A stretch of 64,000 nt of DNA from positions 62,001-126,000 of the forward strand of contig DATCTN010000018.1 in NCBI GenBank assembly GCA_036567965.1, written 5' to 3'. Positions 31,833 through 32,829 of this stretch are shown here, piece after piece. The translations under genes were made by a program, and so were the position numbers. The notes under the pieces were generated by a model. It was not told the DNA's origin. It was given only the letters and a program-made list of their open reading frames with translations, and did not search any database. The stretch is from Candidatus Kryptoniota bacterium (GTDB lineage Bacteria; Bacteroidota; Ignavibacteria; Kryptoniales; JAKASW01). Position 1 is the stretch's first letter; each line of letters begins with the position of its first letter.

Positions 31833-32755
31833 TTAGAACTCCTCCTCCTTATGATTGAATAATTGTAAAAGGTCTACTGATGATGTCCAGATAAGTTTAC
31901 GGACGCGCTGAACCGAACGGAGATTAACTCCAACATGAGTAAGCGGGAGTGTGTCCCGGCGTATTTGTTCGCGATCATTTTGATGTGCCAACGCTCTTTT
32001 CATATATCAGCACAACTTACCGCAACAATTGCAACCATTCTCCTCGCGATCCGCTCATATGTATCATCTCTAGTATCCTCAGTACCAAACTAGGGTTATA
32101 AACAACATGCGCAACTGAACGAATGTACAGTAATGGAGCACAGCCGGGATAGCGTGACTGGCGTCATGGTCGAAGGGATAAGTGGTGATAAGATGGAGCA
32201 GTGGCAGCGTTCTGCAATTAGTCGGGGGATATCGGTCTGGGTCCTGCCCTTTGGCCCGGATTCACAGACGATCACAATGACCTATACCGGCCTCACGCCA
32301 GTTTCGCGGTGAGTCTCGCTCCATCCTCACCGTCCCCTGAGTGTATCTACGAGTCCTCCTTCGCACCACAACATGGCACACGTACATCAATGCCGGTGGC
32401 AAAGTCATGGAATGGGTGACTAACATCCCCAACTCACGTTTGTAATTTCAAATGAAGGCAAAACAATGTGTGAGGCTGAACCAACTCGAGGGAAATTGTG
32501 GCGGAGGAGGGACTCTCCGCCGGAGGCGGATCCTCCGATCCGAAGGATTCCGTCGGAAAGGAGTCTCCCGAAGGGATCCTCCGAAGGAGTCCTTCGGACC
32601 TTCGGGACTTCGGACCTTCGGGAGAACCCCCGACACATGTTCGGTCGCCTTAGCAGTTTGATCCCGGTCTAATCTACGAAATACAAACTATACACTTCGG
32701 GAACCTGGGATGGGAAGGCGAGCATTTAAGATTGGAAGAGACTTAAGTGAAGCAG
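31833..32755. other. 923-bp gene-poor region
   Basis: No intact gene is seen. It contains the tRNA-fragment and repeat insertion (32501-32636). Two short open stretches on the plus strand at 32133-32312 and 32341-32445 look like decayed coding sequence; the second includes TWHTYINAGGKVMEW, which resembles RHS-type repeats only loosely. The first 200 bases should hold the promoter of the Asp-box gene on the minus strand. Confidence 0.5.
32501..32636. repeat. Duplicated tRNA 3'-end fragment interrupted by a palindrome-rich insertion
   Basis: Bases 32501-32515 and 32624-32636 joined together equal 28 consecutive bases of the functional tRNA at 32758-32785. Between them lie 108 bases made of short inverted and direct repeats of TCCGAAGGA, CCTTCGGA and GGATCCTCCGA types, including a near-perfect 19-nt palindrome around 32579-32597. 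The junctions are exact, so the repeat appears to have inserted into a partial copy of the tRNA gene. Confidence 0.8.
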
Positions 32756-32829
32756 TAGCGGAGGAGGGACTCGAACCCCCGACACGTGGATTATGATTCC
32801 ACTGCTCTAACCACCTGAGCTACTCCGCC
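32756..32829 (-). tRNA. tRNA with CAT anticodon (Met elongator or Ile2)
   Basis: A 74-nt cloverleaf read on the minus strand. The acceptor stem is GGCGGAG with CTCCGCT, leaving one terminal G-U pair. The D arm is TAGCTCAGGTGGTTAGAGCA. The anticodon stem GTGGA/TCCAC holds loop ATCATAA with anticodon CAT. The T arm is GGGGG-TTCGAGT-CCCTC. The 3' CCA is not encoded. The terminal pair is not the C-A mismatch of initiator tRNA, so it is an elongator Met or a lysidine-modified Ile tRNA; I cannot decide which. Position 32 is A rather than the common C. Confidence 0.93.

Follow-up and report, generated by a model that had tools for sequence, protein, structure and literature searches.

In 2008, Brok-Volchanskaya reportedly described SegB of phage T4/T6 as a free-standing GIY-YIG homing endonuclease. 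SegB belongs to the tRNA region of T-even phages (PMC2988022). The purified T6 enzyme cuts within tRNA genes with a preference for RAWTSGAAC, although this motif is present in only 23 of 83 cut sites, and SegB drives tandem amplification of the tRNA-plus-segB segment in a manner that requires its nuclease activity (PMC13096335). On the opposite strand, this preferred sequence becomes GTTCSAWTY and agrees with the T-loop GTTCGAATC, an agreement at the level of the motif rather than of a cut bond; the T-loop of the window (the whole 64,000-nucleotide stretch of DNA analyzed here, from a Candidatus Kryptoniota bacterium), GTTCGAGTC, differs from the SegB motif at one position. The elements described below resemble SegB in this fit, in their GIY-YIG domain, in adjoining tRNA genes of many isotypes, and in the tandem amplification of endonuclease and tRNA. 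SegB is phage-borne, however, whereas the elements here are chromosomal, with each lineage tied to one tRNA and located directly behind it, followed by a degenerate, hairpin-plugged copy.

Hairpin elements of organelles are tolerated in loops and spacers. The double-hairpin elements of Allomyces mtDNA and the organelle hairpin elements (sponge RHE, PMC2800124) are, like the inserts reported here, short, paired and dispersed, but the present inserts, compared with them by description, lie in a bacterial chromosome and at a fixed T-loop bond of tRNA copies. REP/RAYT systems likewise comprise short palindromes in many intergenic copies; in the present case, by contrast, no link to a RAYT gene was found, the T-loop inserts lack a constant tetranucleotide at their foot, and tRNA copies serve as targets. 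Integrative elements with a tyrosine recombinase also target the tRNA 3' end and leave a tRNA fragment downstream, whereas the elements here carry a GIY-YIG gene and no integrase, and 5' copies occur as well.

A split tRNA-Met copy in the window

The locus comprises a tRNA-Met gene, a spacer and a degenerate tRNA-Met copy that is interrupted by a cluster of hairpins:

32755..32829, minus strand: functional tRNA-Met (cat) gene, parent of the copy (ARAGORN; Rfam tRNA, 63 bits).
32637..32754, minus strand: spacer of 118 bp between tRNA and copy, the site of the GIY-YIG gene in relatives (comparison with relatives; remnant search).
32624..32636, minus strand: degenerate tRNA-Met copy upstream of the insert, GTGTCGGGGGTTC, comprising variable region, T-stem and the TTC of the T-loop (direct reading).
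32516..32623, minus strand: hairpin cluster of 108 bp, made of TCC...GGA units and inserted at TTC^GA (genome search, fold, repeats).
32501..32515, minus strand: degenerate tRNA-Met copy downstream of the insert, GAGTCCCTCCTCCGC, comprising the 3' strands of the T-stem and the acceptor stem (direct reading).

When read directly, 32501-32515 (gcggaggagggactc) and 32624-32636 (gaacccccgacac) together give 28 bases identical to 32758-32785, within the tRNA-Met gene, and the match continues to 32639 with one mismatch. The copy is split at 32515/32516 and 32623/32624 by the 108 bp of hairpins. On the tRNA strand, the order is GTGTCGGGGGTTC, then TCCCGAAGG...GGCGGA, then GAGTCCCTCCTCCGC, which places the break in the T-loop between TTC and GA with zero bases lost (GGTTC^GAGTCC). 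A palindromic insert with exact junctions inside a duplicated piece of tRNA had been proposed in a preliminary description of this DNA, and the reading confirmed both the 28-base rejoining and the 108-bp insert.

The insert (32516-32623) has several repeats, both inverted and direct. When the stretch was folded as single-stranded DNA, its energy was -42.1 kcal/mol, whereas shuffled sequences gave -29.4 +/- 3.0 (z -4.2). Taken by itself, CCTTCGGA is not uncommon in the window, with 7 occurrences against 3.5 expected. The combination of tRNA-Met copy and insert is not a chance occurrence because a 108-bp insert with 95% identity is located at the same point of a tRNA-Lys copy in the same genome (G000:C17:10696-10825). 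The spacer contained no reading frame, and hmmsearch with all filters off and blastn detected no significant GIY-YIG remnant in it. A VYSLYFVD start in the spacer was considered as such a remnant, but it was within chance. No integrase gene was found between or beside the tRNA-Met gene and its copy. Judged by the copy and its plug, and not by its own gene content, the window structure is called a putative solo (GIY-YIG-less) member or relic of a tRNA-nested GIY-YIG family.

Twelve genus relatives were compared at tRNA-Met. In one of them (G002), an elongator tRNA-Met copy carries different hairpins at the same bond as in the window; in most of the others, no tRNA-Met copy was present in the 500 bp that were read. 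Both states of the tRNA-Met locus, with a copy and without one, occur in the genus.

Degenerate tRNA copies and hairpin insertion sites

A 171-bp query from the window produced 66 matches in its own genome at a loose limit, approximately 19 of them with E < 0.001, and about half of the good matches are located directly behind or before another tRNA gene, inside that tRNA's damaged copy. Twelve of the 46 tRNA genes in this genome have an exact self-match of at least 13 nt in their own flanks; when each flank was paired with a tRNA of another amino acid as a control, such matches occurred in 14 of 1976 pairs. The following goes beyond the preliminary description: the target of the insertion is a decayed copy of the adjoining tRNA, the arrangement is repeated at numerous tRNA genes, and at other loci the tRNA and its copy are separated by a GIY-YIG gene.

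The position and extent of the copies bear on the possibility that the tRNA copy is the attachment-site scar of a deleted tyrosine-integrase island at the tRNA 3' end, with hairpins that arrived later and are unrelated to GIY-YIG genes. A 3' tRNA fragment downstream of a tRNA is the classical footprint of an island. Tyrosine-integrase reading frames were read in the sequence behind tRNA-Met in two genus relatives only (G005 and G011; L136 and L137), and integrase-like pieces are present behind the tRNA-Lys (L086) and tRNA-His (L092) of the window's own genome. Copies in this genome are mostly 3' of the parent tRNA, but those at Pro-ggg, Asn and Ser-cga are 5' of it, and many exceed a 3' fragment and include the D-arm or the whole cloverleaf; attachment-site scars explain neither. 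Moreover, what repeatedly separates copy and tRNA is a GIY-YIG gene and not an integrase, and we regard the scar explanation as quite unlikely.

Over the gathered loci, from the window's genome and its relatives, 35 insertions occurred without loss of a parental base, and 17 of the 35 are at TTC^ of the T-loop. These 17 represent 14 tRNA species and 17 different inserts, all but one of which start with T and end with A, mostly as TCC...GGA. The first three bases of the T-loop inserts are TCC, TCG, TGC, TGA or TTT, and the flanks are the tRNA's own (TTC^GA). The binomial figure for the T-loop bond assumes independent loci and equivalent bonds and means only that the count is far from chance. 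Rows from the position mapper want checking by eye; for example, an 81-nt D-arm "insertion" in the upstream flank of tRNA-Met in G033 (L144) resembles a chance chain of short matches. Other hairpin sites are the anticodon arm (often with a perfect hairpin in its place), the D-loop and the 26/27 junction, and in some lineages the hairpin is in the anticodon or D region and the T-loop is intact. Hairpin types vary from genome to genome. Inserts frequently contain two hairpins side by side, e.g., [TCCAAAGGA][TCCCGCTTTGCGGGA] in the tRNA-Pro copy of G004, and two adjacent TCC..GGA hairpins are found at several loci.

The pattern GGTTCTCC..GGAGANTCC was scanned in 197 genomes of the class; only matches checked for tRNA context were used because many matches outside the genus are in ordinary sequence. 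A scan of genome contigs for the exact 15-mer GGGTTCTCCCGAAGG gave mostly chance matches and one true case, in Calditrichia.

The preliminary description had interpreted the locus as an insertion, and two observations support this. In the tRNA-Gln array of G004 (L314) and the tRNA-Pro array of G001 (L355), degenerate copies with an intact T-loop stand beside insert-bearing copies, representing the empty and filled states of the insert, and different hairpins occupy the same bond in other genomes. The repeat and the tRNA fragments are therefore not one unit everywhere, since copies without the insert and copies with other inserts exist. The RAYT-type mechanism suggested at the same time is not supported: five domains scored as Y1 transposase (Y1_Tnp) are present in the genome, but none was linked to the inserts, and the foot of the T-loop hairpins lacks the constant tetranucleotide.

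The hairpin family of the window insert is also found at non-tRNA places in its own genome, and the hairpins are therefore not made by the GIY-YIG element itself. This distribution, together with the paired hairpins in many inserts, fits palindromic repeats that move on their own, much as REP or double-hairpin elements do, and land in any relaxed DNA. The T-loop would then be a hot spot only through the T-arm palindrome centered on TTC^GAA; read from the sequence, T-arm DNA is indeed almost palindromic, and its dyad coincides with the insertion bond. Such mobility alone does not explain the recurring degenerate tRNA copies and tRNA-linked GIY-YIG genes, nor does it account for the hairpins at anticodon and D positions, where the DNA has no dyad. 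As a complete explanation it is unlikely, but mobile palindromic repeats can be compatible with the homing explanation developed below, as the source of the plugs.

The hairpins are mostly located in parts of the cloverleaf that are unpaired, and the anticodon arm is often exchanged for a new perfect stem, which would suit functional structured RNAs (tRNA-like processing signals or decoys) derived from tRNA duplicates. The 5' acceptor strand is mostly lost from plugged copies, however, the inserts vary in size and sequence between genomes, and copies are absent in close relatives. A functional tRNA-like RNA was set aside as highly improbable because of the missing acceptor strands and the absence of copies in close relatives.

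Several further structures were noted in other settings. The same hairpin (CTCCGAAGGAGTCCTTCGGAC) occurs at G000:C12:155154-155174 and 158054-158074 (L021 and L020), 2.9 kb apart, within sequence that resembles integron attC ends (CCTAAC...AAGCTGAC) in a cassette-array-like arrangement. Six further loci (L019, L024, L026, L027, L028 and L030) share a dispersed repeat that has gcgattttttga...caaaaaatcgc as its arms and gcgggacattttcgcaagggg at one end; it contains the same hairpin cluster at a constant place and resembles a small non-autonomous element. At tRNA-His (L092), a 3' tRNA fragment is located 1.46 kb downstream, as at the end of an island.

GIY-YIG genes behind tRNA genes

In the genus, in other families and in a Calditrichia genome, a functional tRNA is followed after 0-160 nt by a small GIY-YIG gene on the same strand and then by a degenerate, hairpin-bearing copy. 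Among 78 small GIY-YIG domains scored in 13 genus genomes, 30 had a same-strand tRNA 0-162 nt upstream, most often at 0-10 nt, and at these tRNA-linked loci a degenerate, hairpin-bearing copy of the tRNA comes after the gene. The gene has about 80-100 codons and is not accompanied by an integrase. The domain in the relatives' elements matches PF01541 with E values of 1e-15 to 1e-18, and its nearest solved relatives are UPF0213 BH0048/EF2693 and then, weakly, I-TevI. In three tRNA-Gln elements (L338, L325 and L339), the last codons of the gene, as read from the sequence, come from the D-arm of the copy. The GIY-YIG gene is under purifying selection, with a pN/pS of 0.23 among seven tRNA-Gln elements, for which dS is mostly saturated.

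In the genome of the window, tRNA and copy are separated by a small GIY-YIG gene at Val-tac, Ala-ggc, Pro-ggg and Ser-cga, and at Ser-gct such a gene lies beyond the copies; copies at Lys, Val-gac, Pro-tgg and Pro-cgg are without a GIY-YIG gene. A four-gene GIY-YIG array with initiator tRNA copies is located on contig C20 (G000:C20:11804-20217). Tandem arrays of gene plus copy were also found for Gln in G004, for Pro-tgg and Arg-ccg in G002, for Pro-cgg in G001, and for Leu-taa and Thr-tgt in G254, and in the Leu-taa array the hairpin is exactly at the start of the displaced 3' part.

The same layout of tRNA, GIY-YIG gene and copy is present in other families and classes. Calditrichia bacterium CSMAG_1839 has a tRNA-Ser-gga, a GIY-YIG gene and a copy with T-loop hairpins (L452 and L439), and Flavobacterium pectinovorum DSM 6368 has the layout at tRNA-Ala (L445). 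A GIY-YIG gene behind a tRNA, with no clear copy in the stretch shown, was found at the initiator tRNA of F. pectinovorum (L438), in Marinilabilia rubra (L432) and in Marinimicrobia MT.SAG.3 (L430).

A tree of 129 GIY-YIG domains, built on few columns and uncertain in its deep branches, placed all 54 tRNA-linked domains in one clade of 67 (support 99/92), and none of the 62 domains outside the clade is tRNA-linked. Several clade members that were not scored as tRNA-linked carry degenerate Asp, Asn or Val copies. The amino acid of the associated tRNA changes 17 times on the tree, compared with a mean of 38 and a minimum of 32 in shuffles, and a GIY-YIG lineage therefore mostly keeps its target tRNA. 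Close relatives of the tRNA-linked genes were absent from phage, plasmid and viral collections, which contained distant relatives or none. In a search of the open-access literature, chromosomal elements that combine a tRNA, a GIY-YIG gene and a degenerate tRNA copy were not found to have been described; the loci point to a widespread, apparently undescribed family of selfish elements at tRNA genes.

A possible homing mechanism and related observations

The tRNA-Met locus of the window is probably a member, or a relic, of a family of homing-type GIY-YIG elements nested at tRNA genes of the chromosome, one that lacks the GIY-YIG gene; in this family, hairpins would plug the duplicated target at the cut site or close to it. 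More tentatively, the family as a whole may consist of chromosomal, selfish, tRNA-specific GIY-YIG homing endonucleases, widespread in Bacteroidota and related phyla, that cut a tRNA gene, restore it on insertion, and leave a hairpin-plugged displaced copy as a record of past invasions.

We propose that a GIY-YIG nuclease would cut its tRNA gene in the T-loop or, for certain lineages, in the anticodon arm. With an occupied gene as the template, repair would then copy the endonuclease gene together with the part of the tRNA that keeps the tRNA whole, and the displaced tRNA copy would stay behind. Hairpin repeats from the genome's own families could lodge at the cut point of the displaced copy, where they would protect it from renewed cutting and stop it from functioning as a tRNA. 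The window element would have lost its endonuclease gene or never had one, with the plugged copy alone remaining. The parent tRNA keeps an intact T-loop, and self-cutting must be avoided somehow, which counts against the homing model. So do the lack of a GIY-YIG remnant in the window spacer and of the gene at several other copies in this genome, the occurrence of the same hairpins away from tRNA genes, the lineages whose hairpin is in the anticodon or D region beside an intact T-loop, the one-position departure of the window's T-loop from the SegB motif, and the presence of that motif in only 23 of 83 cut sites. The equation of hairpin position with cut site, which we infer, is a weak point of the model, as is the origin of the hairpins.

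The essential role and strong conservation of tRNA genes offer a homing selfish nuclease a universal target, yet one whose function it has to preserve. The family would form the chromosomal equivalent of phage SegB and would account for many tRNA fragments and unassigned small GIY-YIG genes in genomes of Bacteroidota and Calditrichota, and the hairpin positions would provide a natural map of possible cut sites.

Two further observations concern assembly and the remaining GIY-YIG genes. The initiator tRNA of the window's genome is at a contig end (G000:C2:174-246) and its GIY-YIG/copy array is on C20, which suggests that assemblies may be interrupted at arrays of this kind. Genes of the other GIY-YIG clade (L118, L126, L128, L129, L311-L313 and L316) are located away from tRNA genes, and several are flanked by palindromic repeats, TCATCCTGAGC... 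or CGTCATTGCGAGGAG...GCAATGACG, that may be linked to that clade.
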